Part shown: in pieces, positions 367-50,646 of the stretch
Layout: each line of letters opens with the position of its first letter
Position numbering within the stretch: position 1 is the stretch's first letter
Assembly: GCA_020350785.1 (NCBI GenBank)
Contig: CP070722.1
Coordinates: 3,507,072-3,558,546 of the forward strand
From: Gemmatimonadota bacterium
GTDB lineage: Bacteria; Gemmatimonadota; Gemmatimonadetes; Palauibacterales; KS3-K002
Length of the DNA: 51,475 nt
Reading direction: 5' to 3'
Translations under genes and position numbers: made by a program
The notes under the pieces: generated by a model
Databases searched by the model: none
Seen by the model: the letters and a program-made list of their open reading frames with translations, nothing else
Told to the model about the DNA's origin: nothing

Positions 367-3294
367 CTACGACCCCGGCCTCAAATTGCCGAAAAAGCGT
401 TCCGTTTCTGGATTGTAAATGGTAACTCCGTACAACCTTTGCAGCCTGGGTATCTCTCGGCTCAGGTCGAAGCCGGGTGACACCGTGAATATGGCTCTGA
501 AAGTGTCCTCCGCCTCCTCACGCCGCCCGAAGGCATAATAGGCTGCCGCTAGCAGCTGGCGGGCGATAACCTCTTCTTCGCGGGTGAGTCCGCCCTGCGC
601 CAGCTCGTCCTCGAAGAAGGTGACGACTTGGCCATAGGCGGCGTCACGCCAATACCGTACGCCCGGGCCGACCCTTCCGCGGGTGGCGAAGACGGTGATC
701 GAATCCTCGTAAACATCGCGAAGGACCGCCACGCTGCTGGGCATCGATTCGGCATAGAGGCGCATATACTCGAGGGCGATCTCCGGCGACCCGGCATCGC
801 GCAATGTGCGGTAGATGCGGAAGGACTGGTCCACCACCGCTTCGTCTTGATAATACTCGGGCCGCGGACCCTGGCCGACGAGCCGGAGGATCTGTTGGCT
901 CGCCTCGCTGGGGTAGCCGAGCTGCAGATAGACCTCGGCCAGGCGGAAGAGGAAGGGGATGATCCGCTCGCTCGGCATCGGGATCGCCGCCGTCTGCTGG
1001 GCCCAATCGAGAGCCAGAGTGTAGTCACGGAGCTCGTACGCACTGGCGAAGCCGATGTACAGCAGGGTACTTCGCGCCGCATCGTCGGAATCTATCAACC
1101 GCCCTTCGATCAGGCGGACGATCTCGCTGGCGTCGCGCATCGCCTCCGCGTACTCGCCGCGCTCGTACTCCCGCACGGCGGCGAAGTAGCCCAGCGGCAG
1201 CGCTTCCGTCGGCTCACCCTTCACCCCTGTGATGTATCGCGGCGCGACACGCACGTAGCGCGGGACCGGCTCTGAGATGTTGGTGGAATCGAGGCGGAAG
1301 GGCGGCTCGCTCGTCGTGGCAAGCGGGCGGTAAGGGCCGCCGCTCGCGCTGGCACCCTCGATCACGTAGCTGTGGACGAAGCCCTCCGGCCCCGCACTCC
1401 AGCGCAGCACCGCTGCCCCGGCCTCATAGGCTAGCTGGATGGCGGCGATGGGCGGAAAGCTCACGTCCCAACGGTAGATCAGGGTGCGGCCCGCGCCGGG
1501 GTCGGAGAGGTAGATGTTGCCGCTCCGATCGACGTTGATCGGGCCCGGTCGCTCCAGGACGCCCTCGGCGCCCAGCTGAATCATCACGCGCTCCAGGCCG
1601 GTCTCGATCACCGTGATGCGGTGTGTCTGTCGATCGAGCGCGAACAGATTGCCCGCGTCATCAAACGTCAGTGCGGCTACCGGCCCGGTGAGCAGGTCGG
1701 GCTTCAATGGCTCCAGGCGCTCCTCGGCTATTCGTAGCTCGCCGACGGTGGTCCCGTCCTCGTTCCAGACGAAGATCTTCCCGTCGGGCGACACTGCGAC
1801 GCCGACCGGACGAGCCACCCGGTAGTCGCCCAGCAAGGACGCGAGGTCGGCGCTGAAGATCTTGATCTTGTCGTTGCCGGTGTCGGCGATGACTATGCGG
1901 CCGTCAGGCAGAACCGCCAATCCTTGCGGCCGTCGCAGGCGACGCTCGTCGTCGTATCTGTCGCCGTACGTTCCGAGCAACGCGCCGCTCTCACGCGCGA
2001 AAACGGCGAAGCGGTCGCGCCGCGAGTCGGCGATCAGTACCAGCGAGTCGGTGACCGCGGCGGCTGCCACTTCGCCGATGTCCTGGCTGAAGCGGCGCTG
2101 CAGGTGGGTCGGGTCGGGAAGGAAGATCGAGGCGCTATCGCCATAGACCGTTCGATACATCTCGACCTGCGTTCCGGTCAACGAGATGGCGCGCCTGTCG
2201 TCCTCGAGCAGGAAGCGGGGCGCTCCGTCGGGCCCATACCCGACGTCTAGCAGCGGCAGCGAGAGCGAGCGCGGCACGGTGCTGACGCGCAGGGAGAAAC
2301 GAAAGTCGGCTTGCGCTTCCAGGCGCTCGAGCGTCGCGAGTCGGATACGCTCCACCTGGCGGAGGCGGCCATCCAGGATCAACAGTCGGTCGGGCCCGAC
2401 GAATGTCAGATCCGCGGCTTCGCGGAACGAGCCACGAGCGTCGCCGGATCCGCCGTAGAGCAGGTCGTCGGTGCCGATCTCTTCGCTGCTGAACGCGTTC
2501 TTGCTGTATACCCGGCCCGACTTGCGGTCGAGCACCGCCAGCGTTCCCAGGTCGTTGACCGCCAGCGCGATCGGCTCGCTGAAGTTGGCGCCGCGGAACT
2601 GGATTTGCCGGATCACCCCGCGGGGTAGGGACTCGGACCAGGGCAATTCGGTGAACGGCGGAAGCGCGTAGATGATGTCGGCTGAGCGGCGATCGGAGAT
2701 GAAGATCCAGCCGTTGTTGCCGACGGCCAGCGCCGCCGGATCCTCGATCGTGCCCAGACCGATGTGGCGCACGAACAGCCCGTCGCGACTGAAGATCTCG
2801 ACCCCTTTGCGGCCGCCATCCAGCACGTAGAGATAGCCGGCCGGCCCGACGGTGAAGTCGATCGGCCGGTCGAGCTGCCCGGCCCGGCTACCGCTCTCGG
2901 CGATACGCCGTAACAGTGTCCCGGAGGGCCCGAAGACGAAGACCTGTTTTCGACCCTCATCCAGGACGTAGCTCTCGCCGGCGAGGACGAGGGCGAGCGC
3001 GATGGGACGATCCAGAATCTCGGCGCCGTAGTTGCGTTGATAAGCGCCCGCGGAATCATAGACCAGGATGAGGCCTTTGTCGGCTATGTGCAGGGTTCGA
3101 TCCGGCCCGAACCCCAAGGCGGCGGGCCGCTCGCTGGCGCCGGGCTGGCCCTTCTCGGGCAATTGGAAGGAGCCCTGGTCTTCGTAGACCGCCTTGGGTA
3201 CCGCCTGGGCATGCGCCAGTGTGGCGGTTCCCAGAGCCAGCAGTGCCATCCAGGCGCGGGAGGCGGGTCTCGGGATTCGGCGGATCAATTGCAC
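367..3294 (-). CDS. Secreted NHL-type beta-propeller protein with Fn3-like and C-terminal TPR regions
   Basis: About 975 residues. I place the start at GTG 3292-3294, which overlaps the end of the FHA gene by 10 bp and directly precedes a Sec-type signal peptide (RRIPRP, then hydrophobic MALLALGTATLAHA, cleavage near AHAQA). The longer upstream reading frame is only the shadow of the FHA gene. Residues of roughly 45-605 show repeated NHL/six-bladed-propeller units (patterns such as LDRPIDF..GYLYVLDGG, RRPQGLAVLPDGRIVIADT, DRSGNIYLSDPG). About 610-710 resemble a fibronectin type III domain (AVLRWSAGPEG..HSYVIE). The remainder is helical TPR-like repeats (YIGFASAYELRDYTLALDWA, RLAEVYLQLGYPSEA). 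Such proteins act as extracytoplasmic scaffolds or ligand sensors. Its position between FHA and kinase genes suggests a sensory or structural role in the same signalling unit. The exact ligand cannot be told. Confidence 0.75.
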   Translation of the reverse strand: MQLIRRIPRPASRAWMALLALGTATLAHAQAVPKAVYEDQGSFQLPEKGQPGASERPAALGFGPDRTLHIADKGLILVYDSAGAYQRNYGAEILDRPIALALVLAGESYVLDEGRKQVFVFGPSGTLLRRIAESGSRAGQLDRPIDFTVGPAGYLYVLDGGRKGVEIFSRDGLFVRHIGLGTIEDPAALAVGNNGWIFISDRRSADIIYALPPFTELPWSESLPRGVIRQIQFRGANFSEPIALAVNDLGTLAVLDRKSGRVYSKNAFSSEEIGTDDLLYGGSGDARGSFREAADLTFVGPDRLLILDGRLRQVERIRLATLERLEAQADFRFSLRVSTVPRSLSLPLLDVGYGPDGAPRFLLEDDRRAISLTGTQVEMYRTVYGDSASIFLPDPTHLQRRFSQDIGEVAAAAVTDSLVLIADSRRDRFAVFARESGALLGTYGDRYDDERRLRRPQGLAVLPDGRIVIADTGNDKIKIFSADLASLLGDYRVARPVGVAVSPDGKIFVWNEDGTTVGELRIAEERLEPLKPDLLTGPVAALTFDDAGNLFALDRQTHRITVIETGLERVMIQLGAEGVLERPGPINVDRSGNIYLSDPGAGRTLIYRWDVSFPPIAAIQLAYEAGAAVLRWSAGPEGFVHSYVIEGASASGGPYRPLATTSEPPFRLDSTNISEPVPRYVRVAPRYITGVKGEPTEALPLGYFAAVREYERGEYAEAMRDASEIVRLIEGRLIDSDDAARSTLLYIGFASAYELRDYTLALDWAQQTAAIPMPSERIIPFLFRLAEVYLQLGYPSEASQQILRLVGQGPRPEYYQDEAVVDQSFRIYRTLRDAGSPEIALEYMRLYAESMPSSVAVLRDVYEDSITVFATRGRVGPGVRYWRDAAYGQVVTFFEDELAQGGLTREEEVIARQLLAAAYYAFGRREEAEDTFRAIFTVSPGFDLSREIPRLQRLYGVTIYNPETERFFGNLRPGS

Positions 3295-9475: not shown

Positions 9476-10735
9476 ATGATCGAGCTGATCAGCAGCGTAG
9501 ACGACCGCTATCTGACCGACGAGCACCGGATGCTGCGGGGCGTGGTCAGGGAGTTTGCGGAGAACGAGGTCATGCCCATCGCGCGGGAAATCGATCGGGA
9601 GGCTCGTTTTCCCTGGGACAACGTGGCCAAGATGGCGGAGTTGGGGCTGTTCGGGGTGCCGTGGCCGGAGAAGTACGGCGGAGTCGGCATGGACACGCTG
9701 GCCTCTTCGATCGTCAGCGAGGAGCTGGCGAAGTTCTGCCCGTCGCACTCTATCACGGTGGGCGCGACGATAACGCTGGCGGCGAGCCCGATCTACGAGT
9801 TTGGCAACGAGGAACAGAAACAGAGATACCTGACGAAGCTGGCCCGGGGCGAGGTGTTGGGCGCCTTCGGGCTGACGGAGCCGGAGGCGGGATCGGACGC
9901 GCAGGGGACGCAGACGCGTGCCGAGCAAAAAGGCGATCATTGGGTACTGAACGGCAGCAAGATCTTCATCACGAATGGCGGCGTGGGCGAGATCTTCGTG
10001 GCCACGGCGGTGACGGGCGAGTTACCCGGCGGACGAAAGGAGATCAGCTCCTTCATCCTTAGCAAGCCGACGCGCGATCTGGAAGAGGCGCAGCGGGTCG
10101 GTGTGGGTCATGCAGAGGACCTGAAGTATACACCAGGCTTCCGTCACGGTACGAAAGAGGACAAGCTGGGCTGGCGTGCTTCCGACACGACGGAGCTTGT
10201 CTTCGAGGATGCGATCGTTTCCAACGAAGATATGCTGGGCCAGCGTGGCGCCGGGTTCAAGAACTTCATGCGGACGCTGGACGGCGGCCGGATCAGCATG
10301 GCGGCGCACCTGCTGTGAATCGCGGAGGGTGCGCTGGGGTTCACTTTGGAGTACACGCGGGAGCGCGTGCAGTTCAACACGCGGATCTGCGACTTTCAGG
10401 GGGTCAGGTTCGACTTCGCGGATTGGTGGACGCGCATCGAGGCGGGCAAGCATCTGACGTATCACGCCGCGATGCTCCGGCAGGCGGGCAAGCCGCACAG
10501 TAAGGAGGCGGCGATGGCCAAGCTGTACTGCTCCGAGCTCGCGGCTTGGGCGACCACGAAAGCGGTACAGTTCCACGGCGGCTACGGCTACACAAGCGAA
10601 TATCCCGTGGAGCGCCTCATGCGGGATTCGAAGATAGGGGAGATCGGAGAAGGAACCTCCGAGATCCAGAGGACTGTGATAGCGCGCCATCTCCTCGGCC
10701 CGGAGATGACGGGGGGGGAGGTTGGCGCGACATGA
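9476..10735 (+). pseudogene. Acyl-CoA dehydrogenase interrupted by an in-frame TGA codon
   Basis: A 419-codon acyl-CoA dehydrogenase frame (FAD-dependent alpha,beta-dehydrogenation of acyl-CoA in beta-oxidation), starting at ATG 9476 behind AAGGA. The N-terminal helical domain and beta-domain are intact (FGLTEPEAGSDAQG, KIFITNGGVG). At 10316-10318, codon 281, a TGA stands exactly where homologues have glycine (GGRISxAAxxLG then IAxGALE). The same frame continues without any shift through EYTRERVQF, FHGGYGY and the catalytic-base motif IGEGTSEIQR (E392 by this count) to a normal end. Translation stopping at TGA would yield 280 residues lacking the catalytic glutamate. A GGA-to-TGA substitution is the simplest explanation, either real or a base-call error. 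It lies just upstream of rng. Confidence 0.85.
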
Positions 10736-39258: not shown

Positions 39259-42200
39259 ATGGGTAGAGCACGGCGCCCTTTGAGATGGATGGTCGGTGCG
39301 ATCGCTGCCCTGGCACTGCTGATCGCCGTCGCATCCATCCTCTTGTTGACCACTCGACCGGGGGCCCGGCTCGCCGTGAACCTGATCGCAGATAGGCTGC
39401 CTGTCGCCCTGATGGTCGCAGACGTCCGAGGACGGCTGATCGGACCCCTCGAGCTGATAGATGCCAGGCTGGTACTAGATGGCGTGGACCTCGAGGCTGA
39501 CGAGCTAGTCATCGCTTGGCGGCCGCTGGCGATCTTGCGGAGACGGGTACACCTGGAGAGCGTTCGTATTCACGGATTCCGGATCACGGTGCAAGAGGAA
39601 GGAAAAGAGGCGGCCGCGCCCGACGCCATCCAGGCGTCGTCGACCAGCCCGCCCGATACTGCGGGCATCGCGCTTCCGATAGAGGTGATCCTGGATGCAC
39701 TTCAGCTTCGCGATGGATCGCTTTCCATACCCGAGGTGCTCGAAGCTCGTGACATAACGCTGCAGGCCAGCGGGACACTCGAGTCCTACAAGGCCGAAAT
39801 CGAAGCGGCCGTGGAGCTGTTGGACTTTCCCGCAATGCGGTTGGGCGCGGCGGGTAGTGGAACTCTAAACGGGATCGTGCTGCGGTCGACCCTAACGGGC
39901 GCGCTGAAAGGCGAGCTTCGAACGTGGGGTTCGGTCTCCTGGAAACCGCAGTTGACGTGGGACATCGAAGTGGAGGGTGATACGCTCGTTGCTGCAGCCG
40001 TCGCGCCGAACCCCGAGGAGTGGCCCGGCCGGCTGTCTCTGCGGGGACGTACGCGTGGACGTCTGGAGGCTGACCGGCCGCTCGTTTGGATCGAAGTTGA
40101 CACGCTTCAGGGTTCTCTGCGCCGGCAACCGCTTGCTGGCCGGCTCTCGGGCGGCATCGACGGGTCCGAGTACGAGCTTGCGACCGTCAGCTTGGATTGG
40201 GGGAATATCCGCATCGCTGCGCAGGGCGGCCTCTCCCCCGAGCGGCTCGCCCTGGATTTTACGCTCGATGTGCCCGATATGGGCGCCGCTTTACCCCGCT
40301 CCTCGGGCTCGGTAACGGCTTCCGGCAAGCTGTCCGGCTCGCCGTCAGCACCGCAGGTGAAGGCGGCGCTCCGGGCGCGGGAATTGACGGTCGACCGGTT
40401 CGAGCTCGATTCGGTTCGGGCGCTCGTTGACGTGGATTGGGCGGAGCGGAGCCGGAACGAGGTCCAGCTGGCGCTCAGCGGGCTGCGGGTTGCGAACCTG
40501 GTCCTTGATTCGCTGAGCCTAATGGTGCAGGGCTCGAAGGAGGGCCACCAGCTGGACGCCCGAATCGCGAGCGAACGGGCTGACGTCGAGCTTCGAGCTA
40601 CTGGCGCTCTGCGCGGGGAGAGCTGGAAGGGTGAGATCCAATACTTCAGCCTCGAGACGGCGCGGGTTGGCGACTGGCGGCTGGTTGACGCCGTACGACT
40701 CGACGCGGGCAGAAGGGCGGTGGATCTAGGCGAATTATGTCTGGCGGACGAAGATGCTCGGCTCTGTGTCACGGGGTCGTGGGGCGCCGATGATTCCTGG
40801 CGGCTCTCCTCTTCTCTGGAGCAGGTGCCGCTCGAGTTCATCGGCGCATTCCTACCCGGCGGTTGGTCGGCGAGCGGCAAGCTGAGCGGCTCGGCCGTTG
40901 CGGCGGGAGGGGCGGCGCGTGTCGAAGTGGCCGCAGTCGAGCTGCGCTCGGGGCCAGCGGTGTTCGGGCACATGGGCGGAGCACGGGAGACCGTGCTGAG
41001 CTTGGCCGAGAGCGAAATAGCGATCCACTTGGATCCTGATAGCCTCTCCGGCGACATCGGCATCGTCTTGGCCGATTCGAGCGGGGCTGCGGCCGGCGTG
41101 GTCACGGCGTCCGCTCACCTCCCACCCGTCGACGCGCTCACGCGAAAGGCCCAATCGGAAGGGCTTGTCGAGGCCCTGAGTGATGATGGGCGGCTCTCGA
41201 TAACGATCGAAGACGTTCTGTTATCTCTGATGGACGAATACCTGCCCCAGGGGATCAGTTTTCACGGCTCGCTGAACGGCGCGCTCTCCGCTAGGGCGTT
41301 GGCCGATGGTTCGCTGGCCGCGCGGCTCGAGGTGGTACCGGACGATGTGAGCCTCGTACGCGCGGTGGGCGAAGAAGTCCGCATCTTGCGGTTCGTGGAA
41401 CCGACGATCGAAGCGCGCGCAGACGCCGGAGGTGTGCGCGGCCACCTGAGCCTGGCCGTGGCCAGGCCTGACAGTGCGCCGCACGCGATCCTGGCGATCG
41501 ACGTGGCGTTGCCCGAGTACACCAACCTGGCTCAGCCGATCGGCGCGCAGTCGTTGGAGGCGGAGGTCACCGGCTCGATCGACTTGAGCCTCGTCGATGC
41601 GGTGCTCGAGGATATCTCCAATTCACAGGGTCGGCTGGAGATCGACCTCGCGGCGCGCGGCACGGTCAGCGATCCGGATTACTCCGGTGAATATCGCCTG
41701 AGTGGAGACACCGACGTACCGGGTCTCGGGATTCAGCTACGGGACATCGAGCTGACGGCGGAAGCCGCTCGCGAAGGCGTACTCGACATCACCGGAGGAC
41801 TCGTCTCCGGGGATGGCCGTCTGGAGATCGTGGGCACGGCGCCAATAATACCCTCGCCCGACAACCCAGGGCGGCTGTTGATTCGAGGCGAGCGTTTTCT
41901 GGCGGCCCAGACCGATCAGGTCAGCTTGATAGTTTCGCCGAGCCTGGAGATACAGTGGACGGGCACGGCGATCGACGTCACGGGCGAGGTGACGATTCCG
42001 CGGGCGACGATCGAGATTCTCGAGATCCCCGAAACGCCCGAAAACGTCTCGAAGGACGTGGTCCTGGTGGGGGGCGAAGAAGGCCCGCGCAGGCCGCTCG
42101 ACATCTTTGCGAACATTCGCTTGGTCCTCGGCGATGAGATCCTCTTCAAAGGCTTTGGAATTACCACGAACATCGAGGGCTCGATTCAGATGACCGAGCA

Positions 42201-42795
42201 GCCGGACGTCGGGACCCGAGGCCGCGGCGAGCTCGTACTGCGGGAGGGGACCTACCGGGGCTACGGCCAGAACTTGACCATCGATCCGGGACGCCTGGTG
42301 TTCGCCGGACCCGTCGATGATCCGGGCGTGGAAGTGAGGGCGTACCGCCGGGCGAGTGACGGGACGAGGGCGGGCTTCACGATCGGCGGGACGCTCAAGT
42401 CCCTCGATGTCCAGGTGTGGTCCGAGCCCATCATGTCGGAGTCCGCGGCGCTATCCTACGTACTGTTCGGCCGGTCCGCCGAGCAGGGTTCGGAGGCGGA
42501 GCGGCAGCAAGCCGGAAACGCCGCCGCGTTACTGGGTGGCAACATCCTCGCAGCAGCCATGGCGCAGCAGGTCGGCCTCGATGAGGCACGGATCGAAACC
42601 GGTGCCAGACAAGAGGACGCCGCCTTCTTCGCCGGCAAGTATCTATCGCCCAAGCTCTACGTCGCGTACGGGGTCGGTCTTTTCGAGCCGATCGAGGTCA
42701 TACGCGTACGCTACCTCATCTCCCGGAGGTTCACGCTCCAGGCCGAAACAGGCTCGCGTGATAGCGGCGACATCCTATTCAGGATCGAGCGCTGA
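39259..42795 (+). CDS. tamB: Translocation and assembly module TamB (AsmA-like/DUF490)
   Basis: A 1178-residue inner-membrane-anchored protein spanning the periplasm. One N-terminal helix (MVGAIAALALLIAVASILLL) is followed by the AsmA-like start (RPGARLAVNLIADRLPV), then about 900 residues of repeating beta strands that make a hydrophobic groove. The C-terminal DUF490 region is clear (LRGRGELVLREGTYRGYGQNL-like strand pattern, GRLVFAGPVDDPGVEVRAYR, MSESAALSYVLFGRS, YLSPKLYVAYGVGLFEP). It works with TamA in lipid or outer-membrane protein transport. The two genes are separated by three bases. Its 3' end overlaps the convergent DUF6265-like gene by 17 bp. Confidence 0.92.
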   Translation: MGRARRPLRWMVGAIAALALLIAVASILLLTTRPGARLAVNLIADRLPVALMVADVRGRLIGPLELIDARLVLDGVDLEADELVIAWRPLAILRRRVHLESVRIHGFRITVQEEGKEAAAPDAIQASSTSPPDTAGIALPIEVILDALQLRDGSLSIPEVLEARDITLQASGTLESYKAEIEAAVELLDFPAMRLGAAGSGTLNGIVLRSTLTGALKGELRTWGSVSWKPQLTWDIEVEGDTLVAAAVAPNPEEWPGRLSLRGRTRGRLEADRPLVWIEVDTLQGSLRRQPLAGRLSGGIDGSEYELATVSLDWGNIRIAAQGGLSPERLALDFTLDVPDMGAALPRSSGSVTASGKLSGSPSAPQVKAALRARELTVDRFELDSVRALVDVDWAERSRNEVQLALSGLRVANLVLDSLSLMVQGSKEGHQLDARIASERADVELRATGALRGESWKGEIQYFSLETARVGDWRLVDAVRLDAGRRAVDLGELCLADEDARLCVTGSWGADDSWRLSSSLEQVPLEFIGAFLPGGWSASGKLSGSAVAAGGAARVEVAAVELRSGPAVFGHMGGARETVLSLAESEIAIHLDPDSLSGDIGIVLADSSGAAAGVVTASAHLPPVDALTRKAQSEGLVEALSDDGRLSITIEDVLLSLMDEYLPQGISFHGSLNGALSARALADGSLAARLEVVPDDVSLVRAVGEEVRILRFVEPTIEARADAGGVRGHLSLAVARPDSAPHAILAIDVALPEYTNLAQPIGAQSLEAEVTGSIDLSLVDAVLEDISNSQGRLEIDLAARGTVSDPDYSGEYRLSGDTDVPGLGIQLRDIELTAEAAREGVLDITGGLVSGDGRLEIVGTAPIIPSPDNPGRLLIRGERFLAAQTDQVSLIVSPSLEIQWTGTAIDVTGEVTIPRATIEILEIPETPENVSKDVVLVGGEEGPRRPLDIFANIRLVLGDEILFKGFGITTNIEGSIQMTEQPDVGTRGRGELVLREGTYRGYGQNLTIDPGRLVFAGPVDDPGVEVRAYRRASDGTRAGFTIGGTLKSLDVQVWSEPIMSESAALSYVLFGRSAEQGSEAERQQAGNAAALLGGNILAAAMAQQVGLDEARIETGARQEDAAFFAGKYLSPKLYVAYGVGLFEPIEVIRVRYLISRRFTLQAETGSRDSGDILFRIER

Positions 42796-43242: not shown

Positions 43243-44412
43243 ATGACACTGCGAACGATGCTCACGACGCTCTTGATCCTCGCGTTGACAACGGGTGGCA
43301 GATGCCTGGAGGAGTCGACGGCACCACAGGAGGGCGAGGGGCCCGGCCAGGCGCCGGCACCGCCTACGCTGTCGAACGCCGTCCTGCGCTCGCCCGAGCC
43401 CATCTGCAGCCGACCGAGCACGATCGTGTGCGAGGACTTCGAGACGAGCGGGGCTTCGGATTGGAACGACTACAAGGACAACAACTTCAACGTCCAGAGC
43501 GACGATGCCTTCGGCGGCGAGCGCTCGCTGCGGCAGCGTTACGATTTGGGACAGGTGGGCGCGGGCTGGCTGGCCTGGTTCTTCGGCGACCACCCCAACG
43601 GCGGCGTGCGCGGCGGAGAACGTTTCGAGGAGGTCTACTTCCGGTTCTACCACAAGTTTCAGCCGGGCTGGCCGGACAGCTATCCGCCGAAGGTGGCGCG
43701 GATTCGCAGTCACTTTATCGATGGGGGCTGGCGCTTCGCCTGGGCGGAGCATCTCTGGATCAGCCGCAGCCGTTCCAGGGGAACGCCGGCGTCGGATCCG
43801 ATGAGCCGGATCGCCGCGCCGGACGGCACCGAGTACCTGGACGACGCTGAGCGCCGGTGGCTGGGCAACAAGCCGCTGGATCTGCGCTTCGCGGAGCGTG
43901 ACGGCGAGTGGGTGGCGATCGAGATGCGGGTGAAGCTGAACACGCCGGGCCAGGACGACGGCGAGATCACCTATTGGGCCGACGGCAAAGTGGTGCTGCA
44001 GCGCGAGGGCCTGAACATCAGGGGCGCCTACACCGCGACGACGATCAACGTGGCGATGCTCGATACGTACTGGAACGGGGGCGCCGTCGAGGAGGGATTG
44101 AAGCGCTGGTACGACAACGTGGTGGTGGCGACGGAGCCCATCGGATGTGCCGGCTTCAGCGTCAGTAAGTCGGGGTTGGAGAGGCAGGGCGCCTGGCAGC
44201 TCCAGATCGCGGCGGCCGCGGACGAAAGCTCGCTGGTCTGGGATTCCGGCACGATTCAGGGTGCTGGGGACGAGGTTGTAGTCTCGGAGTCGACGGGAAC
44301 GTTCAGCGGCGGGCGACGCTGCGTGTATCCGTCGGAGGCGCCTTTCATGCGGGCGCGTCAGGCTGTAGGGAGTAGCTGGTCGGAGTGGTCAGACTGGGCG
44401 CCGATGTTCTGA
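43243..44412 (+). CDS. Secreted jelly-roll polysaccharide-lyase-like protein
   Basis: A 389-residue exported protein (signal TLRTMLTTLLILALTTGGRC). The central domain, residues about 60-310, has the concanavalin-like jelly-roll of PL14/heparin-lyase-type enzymes: VCEDFETSGASDW, a strand block EEVYFRFYHKFQPGWPD, RWLGNKPLDLRFAERDGEWVAIEMRVKLN and WADGKVVLQREGLNIRG, ending in TYWNGGAVEEGLKRWYDNVVV. The C-terminal 80 residues form another beta domain (ESSLVWDSGTIQGAGDEVVV). Five cysteines outside the signal could form disulfides. It may cut or bind an acidic polysaccharide; catalytic residues cannot be assigned with confidence. It is divergent from the DUF6265-like gene. Confidence 0.65.
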   Translation: MTLRTMLTTLLILALTTGGRCLEESTAPQEGEGPGQAPAPPTLSNAVLRSPEPICSRPSTIVCEDFETSGASDWNDYKDNNFNVQSDDAFGGERSLRQRYDLGQVGAGWLAWFFGDHPNGGVRGGERFEEVYFRFYHKFQPGWPDSYPPKVARIRSHFIDGGWRFAWAEHLWISRSRSRGTPASDPMSRIAAPDGTEYLDDAERRWLGNKPLDLRFAERDGEWVAIEMRVKLNTPGQDDGEITYWADGKVVLQREGLNIRGAYTATTINVAMLDTYWNGGAVEEGLKRWYDNVVVATEPIGCAGFSVSKSGLERQGAWQLQIAAAADESSLVWDSGTIQGAGDEVVVSESTGTFSGGRRCVYPSEAPFMRARQAVGSSWSEWSDWAPMF

Positions 44413-44544: not shown

Positions 44545-45126
44545 ATGCGAAAGCTACTCGTGCGCGCATTCGTCCTCGGCCTGGCGATCGCCCTGGCGGC
44601 GGTTGGCGGTGTGGCGTCGGCCCAGGCTCAGGGGCCTGAGCCCTTGGAGTTAGGCGCCGTCGCGCCGGATTTCTCGCTGCCGGCGGCTACGCGCGATGGG
44701 GTTCTGGAGAGCCCCATCAAGCTCAGTGACTACAAAGGCAAGACCGTCGTCCTCGCCTTCTTCTTCAAGGCGCGGACCGGTGGTTGAACGATCCAGATGC
44801 ATTCGTACCGTGATCAGTACGCACTGCTATTCAATGGTGGAGAGGACGTCGTCCTCATCGCCATCAGCGCCGACCCGATAGAGGAGTTGGCCTCCTGGGC
44901 GCGGGAGGATGACTTTCCGTTCCTCATGGCCAGCGATGCCGACACGAAGGTGGGCACGGCGTACGGGGCCTTGGCGAGCCGGGCCGGGATGACGAACCGC
45001 AACTTGTTCGTGGTGGGGCCCGATGGTAAGATCGCCTATCGGGCGACGCCCTTCCGCGAGATCGACCCGACGGCGTATACCGAGCTGGGCGAGGCGATCG
45101 ATCGGCTGGCGCCAGGGGAAAGATAG
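44545..45126 (+). CDS. Exported selenocysteine-containing peroxiredoxin (AhpC/TSA family), UGA at Sec81
   Basis: A 193-residue AhpC/TSA peroxiredoxin if the TGA at 44785-44787 is read as selenocysteine. A signal peptide (LVRAFVLGLAIALAAVGGVASAQAQ) sends it to the periplasm. The thioredoxin-fold start (GAVAPDFSLPAA, KLSDYKGKTVVLAFFFKA) leads into RTGG-U-TIQMHSYRDQYALL. The UGA sits exactly at the peroxidatic-cysteine position of the (P)xxxTxxC motif, with the threonine three before it; the usual proline at -7 is phenylalanine. The frame then continues intact (DVVLIAISADP, NLFVVGPDGKIAYRA). No cysteine exists in the mature part, so it would be a one-Sec enzyme needing an external reductant. Reading it as two genes fails: the second half has no ribosome-binding site. 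The neighbours TlpA and CcdA-like are plausible reductants. Confidence 0.8.
44794..44826 (+). promoter_or_regulatory. Candidate bacterial SECIS element
   Basis: Directly behind the TGA, CGTAC (44804-44808) pairs with GTACG (44817-44821) around the eight-base loop CGTGATCA; CAG (44794-44796) and CTG (44824-44826) can extend the stem across an asymmetric internal loop. The conserved guanosine is at the second loop position (44810), 22 nt after the TGA. Loop-G position, loop size and distance agree with bacterial SECIS rules. Confidence 0.65.
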
Positions 45127-45193: not shown

Positions 45194-45703
45194 CTACCGC
45201 CCCATTATTTTCTCCAAGGCCGCCACGATCTTCTGGTCCTCAGCCACGCCGGTGTAGGCCACCTGGCCCTGACCATCCAAGATCACGATGTAGGAGGTAG
45301 ACGGCGCCTGGAAGGCGCGAACCGCGGCACCGTCCCCATCCCAGAGCACGCGGCCCGGCATCTCATGATCTGCCAGATGCCGGCGCACCCGGCGCACACT
45401 CTGGTTCACCGCCACGGCGACGATCAAGAACTCTACATCGGAACCGAAACGAGCGTAGGCGGCCGCCAGCTCGGGCTCGAGCGCCTTGCAGACGGGGCAC
45501 CAGGTGGCCCAGAACTCCAGGAGCACGGGCTTCTTGCCGTAGTACGCGCCCAGGTCGACGGCGGCGCCGTCGAGATCCTCGACCTGGGCCGCCGGGGGCG
45601 TCGCGCCCAACGGCAGGCCGATCTGGTCCTGCGCCGCTGCGGGGTGTGCCAAAGCCGCGAGCAGCGCGAACGATGCTGCTGCGCTTCGCCATCCAGTCAT
45701 CAC
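45194..45703 (-). CDS. TlpA/ResA-like periplasmic thioredoxin
   Basis: A 169-residue thioredoxin-fold protein with a signal peptide (AAASFALLAALAHPAAAQ) and the redox motif WCPVC (C69, C72) in LLEFWATWCPVCKALEPEL. The cis-proline region is PSTSYIVILDGQG. Proteins of this group keep periplasmic thiols reduced, for example in cytochrome c maturation or as donors to peroxiredoxins. It overlaps the CcdA/DsbD-like gene by 4 bp and converges with the selenoprotein peroxiredoxin gene 68 bp away. The three genes suggest one redox relay across the inner membrane. Confidence 0.9.
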   Translation of the reverse strand: MMTGWRSAAASFALLAALAHPAAAQDQIGLPLGATPPAAQVEDLDGAAVDLGAYYGKKPVLLEFWATWCPVCKALEPELAAAYARFGSDVEFLIVAVAVNQSVRRVRRHLADHEMPGRVLWDGDGAAVRAFQAPSTSYIVILDGQGQVAYTGVAEDQKIVAALEKIMGR

Positions 45704-46401
45704 AACACCAGGCCCACCTGAATGAAGTAGTACTCGGCCACCGCCAGCAGGATGAGGCCGGCGATCTTCTTGACCCAGATCAGCCAGCTGCCCGATTTGG
45801 GCAGCGCGGCCAGCGCGCCCGAGAAGATGCCGACCACAGCCAGCAGCGCCGTCATGCCCAGCGAGAACACGAACAGGTAGAGAAACCCGAGGACGGCGCT
45901 GCCGGTTCCTGCGACCCAGGTCAGGACCGCCGCGAAGGCGGGCGCCCCGCAGGGCGCGGCGACGATCCCGGAGGTGGCGCCCAAGAGGAAGGCCGCCGGC
46001 AGCGATCCGCCGCGCAGACCGCTGGCCCAGGCCACGAGGCGGCTGGGCGCGGAGATGGGAATCACATCGAGCATCGCCAGCCCGAAGAGGAGGAGCAGGT
46101 TGCCGATGGCGAGTCGTGCCCAGGGGCTGGCGCTGACGGTGCCGAAGAGCGAGCCAGTCAGCCCGGCGACCAGGCCGAGGACGGCGTAGAACATCGCCAG
46201 GCCGGTCACGTAGGTGAGGGTGAGCCGGACGGTGCGGGCCCGGGAGCCGCCCGGGCCGGCGCTGCCGCCGATCACGCCCACGGTGATCGGGATCATCGGG
46301 TAGATGCAGGGCGTCAGGCTGGTCAGGACGCCGGCGCCGAACAGCAGTGCGAGAGCGAGTAGGGGCTGGCTCTGCAGCGACTCGCTGAGGCCTTGAGCCA
46401 T
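45700..46401 (-). CDS. CcdA/DsbD-type membrane electron carrier
   Basis: A 233-residue inner-membrane protein with six or more helices. The paired redox cysteines are C32 in SLTPCIYPMIPIT and C151 in IVAAPCGAPAF, the DsbD-beta/CcdA signature. It carries electrons from cytoplasmic thioredoxin to periplasmic thioredoxin-like proteins. The N- and C-terminal soluble domains of full DsbD are absent; the coupled TlpA-like gene can supply that function in trans. The start is ATG 46399-46401; the longer upstream frame has no signal or membrane character. It is divergent from the TPR lipoprotein gene. Confidence 0.88.
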   Translation of the reverse strand: MAQGLSESLQSQPLLALALLFGAGVLTSLTPCIYPMIPITVGVIGGSAGPGGSRARTVRLTLTYVTGLAMFYAVLGLVAGLTGSLFGTVSASPWARLAIGNLLLLFGLAMLDVIPISAPSRLVAWASGLRGGSLPAAFLLGATSGIVAAPCGAPAFAAVLTWVAGTGSAVLGFLYLFVFSLGMTALLAVVGIFSGALAALPKSGSWLIWVKKIAGLILLAVAEYYFIQVGLVL

Positions 46402-46664
46402 GGCAGCGGCTGGGAGAACGGTTGTGGACACGACGTTATGTAAGGGACTGCGAGCAAGGGGGCAAGTCACGGCAGAGCAGGCGATGGCTGGGGCCAAACA
46501 GATGCCTGGACAAGAAGCTTGCGCGCGGCCGGGTGAATAGTGATCTTATTGGGTTCCCATGATAGTGCGAGTCCGGCGGTCCCAGCCCGCCTCGCGGGGC
46601 ATACCGCCGAAGTCAGCTGAGCGCCTAGCTGTTGGCTCTGAGTGCGCAAACTCAAGGAGGTATC

Positions 46665-48246: not shown

Positions 48247-48526
48247 TCGCATCCTGCGGATTGCGCAGGGCGCCCAATATCGCAACCTGACCAAGCCGAA
48301 CTCACACACAAGCTCGCACAGCCAAACAAGAAGTGGTCGGCCGGTGCGACTCTGGCTTTGCTGGGTAGGCCGCACCGCCGCCAGTTGGGCTGAAGAGTGC
48401 CATCGGTGGCGAATTCTTCCGGCCGTGTTGAGTGCTTGTTATCTTGCGAGTGACTCTCTCACGCACGACTAATCGACAGCTTGTGGCATAGCGTGGAACT
48501 GGCAAGAACTGCGGGGCGCGAGTTTG
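48247..48526. other. Intergenic region before the formylglycine-enzyme-like gene
   Basis: About 280 bp with no gene. An imperfect inverted repeat around GTGACTCTCTCAC (about 48450-48462) is the only visible feature and may be a regulator site. Confidence 0.4.
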
Positions 48527-49687
48527 ATGCTTAGCGGCGCGAGTAAAGTGCAGCGCCAGAACAGGCGACGGGCGCTGGCGATGGCCGGTGTCGCTGGCGT
48601 CGTCATCGTGGCCATGAGTGGCTATCTCTATCTGAAGCAGCGTACCGGGACGCGCGCGGAGCTGCAGATGACGTTTCGCCGTGACATCGATACGGATGTG
48701 CAGGCAAGTTACAGAGCGCTGCTGAGCCTCGTGCGGGACTTCGGCGAACCCTCCGCGGAGGCTTTCGGCGGTGCCGTGCAGGAATACGCGGCTTCGCTGT
48801 TTGCCGAAGGGCCGCTGGCCACGGATACGACGGAAGCTATCACGGCCATCGAGGAATTGCGGGTCATCGAAACTGTCTACCCGGCCTTCATGGCGAACAG
48901 GGAGGCTTTTGGCGCGATCGCCTACCGGCTGGAGAGCATCGGCGCGCGAAATGATGATCTGCGAGCTCGCGCCCATCGAGTCGCAGCAGAGGTTCGACAG
49001 AGGTTCATCGAGACGAGCGAACTGGCTGATCTCAAGGCTCAAGACGACCCCCTCAACAAGGGCATTTGGATCAAACCTGGTAGTTTCAGGATGGGCGGCG
49101 AACGTCAGACGCGCTTGTCCGCTGGTTTCTACATACAAGAGCACGAGGTGACGAACGAGGAGTATCGGCGCTTCGACTCGACCCACAGATTCCGTGAAGG
49201 GATGGAGCGGCACCCCGTCGGCAATGCGACTTGGTACGAGGCGATGGCCTACGCGGCGTGGCTCGGCGGTAGCTTGCCCACGGAGGCGCAGTGGGAGCTT
49301 GCCGCGCGGGGGACTGGCGGTCGGACGTATCCGTGGGATAGCGATGAGGCACCGACCTGCGAACACGCCCAATACGGCGGTTGTCCTGGCGGTGGGACGG
49401 TAGAGGTCATGTCCGCCGCGCGCGGGGCAACGCCCGAGGGGGTTTACGACCTGGCAGGCAATGTGTGGGAGTGGGTGAGCGACTGGGAAGCAGAAGCCTA
49501 CGAAGCAGCAGACTCGGTTGACCCGCGCGGCACGGAAACCGGCGCCTATCGCGTGTTGCGGGGCGGTTCGTTCGACTATGATGTGAGCTACCTGCGCGCG
49601 TCGTTTCGCGCCGGCTCCTTCCCCGAGTTCACGATCGGCAGCTCCGGGTTTCGGGTCGTGTGGCAGTTGGCGGCAGGAAAAGACTGA
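48527..49687 (+). CDS. Membrane-anchored formylglycine-generating-enzyme-like (SUMF1/EgtB-fold) protein
   Basis: A 386-residue protein with a basic N-terminus and one membrane helix (AMAGVAGVVIVAMSGYLYL), a coiled-coil-like linker (about 45-175), then a C-terminal FGE-sulfatase domain (about 180-386): GIWIKPGSFRMGGE, FYIQEHEVTNEEYRRF, GNATWYEAMAYAAWLGGSLPTEAQWELAARG, GVYDLAGNVWEWVSDW and YRVLRGGSFDYDVSYLRASFR. FGE-like proteins modify sulfatases or act as non-enzymatic binding modules. The two cysteines in CEHAQYGGC are not placed like the copper-binding pair of true FGE, and there is no iron-binding histidine trio of EgtB type, so a non-catalytic role is likely. The start is ATG 48527. Confidence 0.8.
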   Translation: MLSGASKVQRQNRRRALAMAGVAGVVIVAMSGYLYLKQRTGTRAELQMTFRRDIDTDVQASYRALLSLVRDFGEPSAEAFGGAVQEYAASLFAEGPLATDTTEAITAIEELRVIETVYPAFMANREAFGAIAYRLESIGARNDDLRARAHRVAAEVRQRFIETSELADLKAQDDPLNKGIWIKPGSFRMGGERQTRLSAGFYIQEHEVTNEEYRRFDSTHRFREGMERHPVGNATWYEAMAYAAWLGGSLPTEAQWELAARGTGGRTYPWDSDEAPTCEHAQYGGCPGGGTVEVMSAARGATPEGVYDLAGNVWEWVSDWEAEAYEAADSVDPRGTETGAYRVLRGGSFDYDVSYLRASFRAGSFPEFTIGSSGFRVVWQLAAGKD

Positions 49688-50118: not shown

Positions 50119-50202
50119 GCCCGGGTGGCGGAACCGGCAGACGCGTCGGACTCAAAATCCGATGGGCTTCGGCCCTTGAGGGTTCGAGTCCCTCCCCGGG
50201 CA
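50119..50202 (+). tRNA. tRNA-Leu (CAA anticodon)
   Basis: The acceptor stem GCCCGGG (50119-50125) pairs with CCCGGGC (50195-50201) with discriminator A at 50202. The D-arm region has GTGGCGGAAC..GGCAGACG. The anticodon stem TCGGA/TCCGA encloses the loop CTCAAAA, giving anticodon CAA (50153-50155), which reads UUG. A long class II variable arm (TGGGCTTCGGCCCTTGA) and the T-loop GGTTCGAGTCC are present. The 3' CCA is not encoded. Confidence 0.95.
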
Positions 50203-50646
50203 CTCAGACACAGCGTTTCGCTTGACGTTCACGCATCGTCGGGTTGGCCTTGGCGCTGGCTTTGCGCCAGACCCACGACTTTGCGGGTCTCCTTCGCGTC
50301 GAGTGCGCCCGCCAGTCTTCCAACGGCTGCGACGGTAAAGACATTGCCATTCTTCCTCAATGCTGTCCTTCTATAGCCCCTTATGGCTTCTCAGTTATCC
50401 CTAAACCATTTCTGCATTCGCCCGGTCGCCGCCCAACAGGCGCCGAGTATACCATGCCAGGTCGATCCCGGGGGACAGGAGGATACCTGCCCGCCCGCCG
50501 GTCCTCTCTCTTCTTGGCGTGGGCGTGGACCTGTAAGTAACTGTACAATAGGGACTTGTGTTTAATAATTCTTGTTTTTGATTGACGCCTCATTTATCTT
50601 ACTCCGTTCTTCGTGCCCAAATTTGCCCCAACCAAAGGAGTACCCC
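50203..50646. other. Intergenic region between tRNA-Leu and the last lipoprotein gene
   Basis: A 444-bp gap whose last 100 bp are clearly A+T-rich (TAATAATTCTTGTTTTTG). TTGTTT (50572-50577), 17 bp, TATCTT (50595-50600) is a weak promoter candidate for the lipoprotein gene; TACAAT at 50544-50549 is a further -10-like sequence. No further tRNA or gene is seen. Confidence 0.4.

Follow-up and report, generated by a model that had tools for sequence, protein, structure and literature searches.

An in-frame UGA gene that very likely encodes an exported single-selenocysteine peroxiredoxin in Gemmatimonadota

The window analyzed here, a 51,475-nucleotide stretch of DNA from a Gemmatimonadota bacterium, contains a peroxiredoxin reading frame with one internal TGA, followed on the opposite strand by two genes for redox proteins. 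The features of the locus are listed below.

44545..45126, plus strand: gene for a putative exported, selenocysteine (Sec)-containing peroxiredoxin (193 aa; UGA = Sec81; TAG stop at 45124-45126)
44545..44622, plus strand: putative signal peptide, MRKLLVRAFVLGLAIALAAVGGVASA, judged by eye
44764..44766, plus strand: codon TTC for Phe74, at the canonical proline of the PxxxTxxC motif (Phe or Tyr in 47 of 50 Sec rows of the alignment)
44785..44787, plus strand: UGA codon for Sec81, the predicted peroxidatic residue (21 of 22 close homologues also have TGA here in the alignment)
44803..44822, plus strand: putative SECIS hairpin (arms 44804-44808/44817-44821; loop CGTGATCA at 44809-44816, with G44810)
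45194..45703, minus strand: gene for an exported TlpA/ResA-type thioredoxin-like protein (WCPVC), the likely reductant (Pfam Redoxin/Thioredoxin)
45700..46497, minus strand: gene for a membrane electron carrier of the CcdA/DsbD_TM type (Pfam DsbD_TM, E 7.7e-42); it overlaps the tlpA-like gene

The reading frame of the peroxiredoxin opens with an ATG at 44545, contains a sole TGA at codon 81 (44785-44787) and closes with the TAG at 45124-45126. Readthrough of the TGA gives a 193-aa product, residues 37-165 of which match the Pfam AhpC-TSA family (E 1.6e-27). A preliminary description had proposed an AhpC/TSA fold between these coordinates, broken only by a TGA at the codon of the peroxidatic cysteine; the coordinates and the codon proved to be exact, and the fold is supported by the Pfam match. 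The residues around the TGA (TGGUT) correspond to TPGCT in PrxQ/BCP proteins, such that the TGA replaces the peroxidatic cysteine codon. The active-site motif PxxxT/SxxC(U) is represented by T78 and Sec81, its proline position being occupied by Phe74, and the invariant Arg152 is also present. No cysteine occurs elsewhere in the 193-aa protein, and the mature protein contains neither another Cys nor another Sec, which bears out the earlier statement that further cysteines are lacking. The AlphaFold2 model has a mean pLDDT of 86.8, and the top PDB matches in Foldseek were BCP and AhpE peroxiredoxins. Judging from the signal peptide recognized by eye, the protein is presumably exported; hydrophobic N-terminal stretches ending in AxA/AQ-like sites also occur in its homologues.

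A scan of bacterial genomes recovered 22 close relatives at 52-77% identity, almost all of which are labelled Gemmatimonadota. The aligned codon is TGA in 21 of these and TGC in one, and the sole sense alternative in close homologues is Cys (TGC or TGT, in some lineages), as would be expected from the preliminary description, which had proposed aligning homologues in search of Cys at codon 81. Conservation of the protein is strong on both sides of the TGA, and cysteine is absent from every Sec row examined. One relative filed under another phylum (L026) is probably misbinned, since its N-terminus, length and identity match those of a Gemmatimonadota contig (L027). Within the phylum, 311 of the 395 genomes drawn contain a match (E<=1e-25), and most of these matches have a single in-frame TGA. 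Among the approximately 150 best phylum matches listed, nine had no stop and the remainder one TGA; in three of the nine stop-free genomes a second, TGA-bearing copy was located nearby. In three Gemmatimonadota genomes (loci L204, L205 and L207), copies of the Cys and Sec forms lie close together, and these Sec copies retain the motif proline.

The same DNA could be read as two genes, the first for a short secreted peptide and the second for an independent protein that starts at ATG 44797. This ATG is conserved, and gene callers would be expected to split the frame there, as had been predicted. The earlier remark that the downstream half has no ribosome-binding site holds only approximately, as a weak GGTGG lies ~12 nt before the ATG. 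However, T82 and Q84, which are situated between the TGA and the ATG, are invariant in 21 aligned homologues, and reinitiation at ATG 44797 therefore does not explain the gene. Moreover, the Met is also conserved in the Cys forms, in which the frame is continuous, and a split would run through the active site of the thioredoxin fold. Two separate genes are thus hardly credible.

The region behind the TGA is conserved at the level of its codons. Codons +6 to +11 (GCG TAC CGT GAT CAG TAC) are each found in 49-50 of 50 non-redundant TGA genes; elsewhere in the 90-codon stretch, only the TGA itself and the codons of Met and Trp, which have one codon each, are similarly fixed. In the ten Cys genes the region varies, CGT being replaced by CGC in 8 of 10 and GAT by GAC in 7 of 10. 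The consensus fold, GCGTAC-(CGTGATCA)-GTACGC, lies 22 nt after the UGA and has G at loop position 2, and the hairpin previously described at this distance from the TGA, with guanosine at the second loop position, is indeed present in the window (G44810). The fold agrees with the published bacterial SECIS model, which calls for a G in the first two loop positions, a loop of 3-9 nt, a stem of 4-16 bp and a spacing of 16-37 nt (PMC13188914): the loop measures 8 nt, and the stem has 5 bp in the window and 6-7 bp in relatives. The next pair outwards is formed between two wobble positions; it reads T-A, C-G, G-C or A-T in 43 of the 50 genes (shuffled mean 23.6), a count that ties for the highest among 2278 pairs of variable third positions. 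Pairs beyond this covarying outer pair were looked for in the Sec-gene alignment and were not found. Together, the fixed codons and the covariation argue strongly for a selenocysteine insertion element.

The copy in the window is weak when taken alone, because an Ala-to-Ser substitution (GCG to TCG) abolishes the lowest G-C pair (44803-44822, now T.C), which is kept in 49 of the 50 TGA genes. Folded by itself, the hairpin has a minimum free energy of -7.0 kcal/mol (z 0.39), a stability no higher than that of shuffles; the same 48-nt stretch in the other Sec homologues that were folded is in every case at or below -8.9 kcal/mol. The window value slightly misses the SECIS limit of -7.5 kcal/mol, which is a search threshold and not an absolute requirement, and a subset of genes fail the bacterial model (PMC13188914). 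Since the window's own copy has lost this pair, it is its relatives that suggest a SECIS function for it. The SECIS prediction recommended in the preliminary description is in this sense upheld by comparison across the 50 TGA genes.

The same genome encodes selA (558 bits), selB (372 bits) and selD (378 bits), all above the NCBIfam cut-offs. The selD gene (L101, G000:C1:23901-24821) itself carries an in-frame TGA at GAG-U-ACK, its active site, and is a second gene in the genome with a TGA at a known Sec site; its product is probably a selenoprotein as well. Of the four sel genes for which a search had been suggested, only selC was not recovered intact in this gapped assembly, whether by the Rfam model, by ARAGORN near selA, selB and selD, by a pattern search with a spacer of about 34 nt or by DNA similarity. 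The best Rfam selC hits in the genome were ordinary tRNAs such as Ser and Leu, and a pattern hit at 1499821-1499861 resembles an isolated 3' half of a tRNA close to a gap in the assembly. A 30-nt 5' piece of selC was located at G000:C1:622470-622499 (L156 1501-1530; L220 about 9971-10000), with 28 of 30 positions matching. This piece ends at the anticodon stem, ~740 nt before an assembly join, and no 3' half was found in the genome; the "single contig" assembly consists of contigs joined by runs of 100 N.

Among the relatives, a tRNA-Sec match above the gathering score was obtained in 35 of 40 genomes. In one of them (G001, L144), an integrase-like ORF (486-1496, plus strand; Pfam Phage_integrase 24.2 bits, below the cut-off of 27.1) abuts the 3' end of selC (1497-1592, minus strand). 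In a further relative, G003, gaps in the assembly divide selC. The arrangement in G001 suggests that selC serves as an integration site in this family, and integration may explain the breaks in selC. The selA gene was detected in 27 of the 28 searched genomes with the Sec form and was missing in three of the five whose only copy is the Cys form, two of those three being 82-83% complete.

Two further readings of the TGA can be weighed against these data, and each could draw on the lack of an intact selC in the assembly. In the first, the TGA, which is one base from TGC and TGT, would be a nonsense mutation in a pseudogene or a miscalled cysteine codon. The same TGA, however, recurs in dozens of genomes that were assembled independently and in which the downstream frame is conserved, and fixation of the codons that follow it is confined to TGA genes. 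For the peroxiredoxin family as a whole this explanation is refuted by the homologues, and for the window it is extremely improbable. In the second, the UGA would be read as another amino acid, by near-cognate readthrough with tRNA-Trp or in a reassigned code, and any such readthrough would look alike in the DNA. This is very unlikely given that the position is that of the peroxidatic Cys, with Cys as its sole sense alternative in close homologues, and that selenocysteine genes and a SECIS-like hairpin are present.

It is therefore considered very likely that 44545-45126 constitutes a single gene and that its product is an exported AhpE/PrxQ-type peroxiredoxin with one selenocysteine, inserted under SECIS direction, and with TlpA-CcdA as its likeliest reductant. 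What can be read directly in the DNA is the recoded frame together with its conserved element, the linkage of the genes, the lack of Cys and the machinery for Sec except selC. The probable selenoprotein of the preliminary description is thereby supported by the presence of selA, selB and selD, by the TGA of the homologues and by a SECIS-like element recognized from synonymous-site conservation and covariation. The phylum-wide occurrence of the family, the replacement of the motif proline and the adjoining CcdA-TlpA pair go beyond that description.

Knowledge of selenocysteine peroxiredoxins with a TxxU motif goes back at least to 2005 (PMC1088965, PMC13188914). The window protein resembles the known type (COG1225 / PF00578, TxxU) in its predicted peroxidatic Sec and in the SECIS behind the UGA (PMC1088965; PMC13188914), whereas the Gemmatimonadota form is apparently exported, is free of Cys, mostly has Phe or Tyr in place of the motif proline and is distributed phylum-wide. 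It shares Sec with PrxU (NF040737, Eubacterium acidaminophilum type), but scores only 62.4 bits against a cut-off of 270; its score for PrxQ/BCP (NF006960), 62.8 bits, is likewise below the cut-off of 140. AhpE of M. tuberculosis is similar in several respects (~32% identity, TM-score of 0.85 to 1xxu, a single redox residue and no resolving Cys), although BCP structures score as well as AhpE 1xxu for the window protein. In contrast to the window protein, AhpE employs Cys and not Sec, keeps the motif proline, and its matched sequence has no signal peptide.

The motif proline of peroxiredoxins is near-universal and shields the peroxidatic residue. In the 50 Sec rows, the first motif position is Phe in 36, Tyr in 11 and Pro in 3, while all ten Cys rows have Pro (Pro versus Phe/Tyr by Sec/Cys form, Fisher p 3.8e-9, the rows being related and not independent). 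In a tree rooted with distant peroxiredoxins as the outgroup, the Cys rows are scattered among the Sec rows, also inside the large Sec/Phe clade; the tree contains five changes of label between Sec and Cys, of which at least three are forced by well-supported branches. A 2006 survey recorded five Cys-to-Sec conversions for peroxiredoxin and none from Sec to Cys (PMC1794560); the present tree suggests that reversion from Sec to Cys has also happened. One tentative explanation, somewhat more apt to fail than to hold, is that Sec frees the peroxiredoxin from the motif proline, which gives way to Phe or Tyr, and that Cys revertants had to regain Pro. Were this true, Sec would buy release from an active-site constraint and not just speed; possible gains would be an altered substrate pocket or, in the oxidising envelope, resistance to over-oxidation. 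Close Sec and Cys versions of this one-residue peroxidase, which consistently differ at one active-site position, also provide a natural experiment on the reasons for selenium use. A set of distant loci from Chloroflexi, Desulfacinum and others (L042, L045, L049-L055, L059) carry CFYPGDFTFV-TGA-PTE and are probably PrxU-type selenoproteins. These PrxU-like loci keep the motif proline (CFYPGDFTFVU), which most Gemmatimonadota Sec forms do not.

The tlpA-like and ccdA genes of the window are situated downstream of the peroxiredoxin gene and convergent to it. Among the 46 Sec loci with enough flank, TlpA is downstream and convergent in 32 and CcdA is nearby in 29. In the ten Cys loci, the TlpA-CcdA pair was nearby in one, and TlpA was downstream and convergent in none. 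This linkage points to an electron route from CcdA through TlpA to the Sec-peroxiredoxin. A similar pathway layout is known from Caulobacter crescentus, in which the membrane carrier ScsB, the exported thioredoxin-like protein TlpA and the exported Cys peroxiredoxin PprX remove peroxide in the envelope (PMC5403849); in the proposed route CcdA would replace ScsB, and the peroxiredoxin would use Sec.

According to the proposed mechanism, SelB with Sec-tRNA would decode the UGA at 44785-44787 as selenocysteine under the direction of the 44803-44822 hairpin, and the resulting Sec-peroxiredoxin would be exported. By analogy with its family, its selenolate would reduce peroxide and be converted to selenenic acid. 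Because the peroxiredoxin has no resolving Cys, an outside reductant would be required; the selenenic acid would be reduced by an outside thiol, most likely that of the exported TlpA-like protein from the adjoining gene, which would in turn be recharged across the membrane by CcdA.

The electrons might instead be supplied by a low-molecular-weight thiol or by another exported redoxin. The one-Cys relative AhpE of M. tuberculosis is reduced by mycothiol or mycoredoxin (PMC8945050), and no TlpA homologue was found in the examined flank of 14 of the 46 Sec loci; TlpA is therefore not the partner everywhere, unless it is encoded elsewhere. On the other hand, the convergent tlpA-like gene in 32 of the 46 loci, usually accompanied by ccdA, and the TlpA-type donor of the Caulobacter precedent (PMC5403849) favor the neighboring gene. 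Such an alternative donor is accordingly rated as unlikely, albeit with an appreciable chance of being correct.

Exported Cys peroxiredoxins were already known (PMC5403849). Two reviews searched for these points mention neither Gemmatimonadota nor peroxiredoxin export, and a literature search, which was not exhaustive, found no paper on a Gemmatimonadota Sec-peroxiredoxin family or on Gemmatimonadota selenoproteins. As far as could be found, two features are new: an exported family without Cys that spans the phylum, and the almost complete disappearance of the motif proline from its Sec forms. The UGA stops gene callers, and the enzyme would consequently be truncated or split in most Gemmatimonadota annotations. 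Its recognition would extend selenium use to a phylum unmentioned in the reviews, and to peroxide defence outside the cytoplasm.

Other genes of the window were also annotated. Directly upstream of the peroxiredoxin, 43243-44412 encodes a protein that matches a polysaccharide lyase family (Pfam PF21294, E 7.3e-9); a homologue of this protein was not found beside the peroxiredoxin in the loci of relatives. A TamB-like protein of 1178 aa (Pfam TamB, E 2.3e-49) is encoded at 39259-42795. Farther along, a formylglycine-generating-enzyme-like (FGE-sulfatase) protein at 48524-49687 is followed by a tRNA-Leu (CAA) at 50119-50203.
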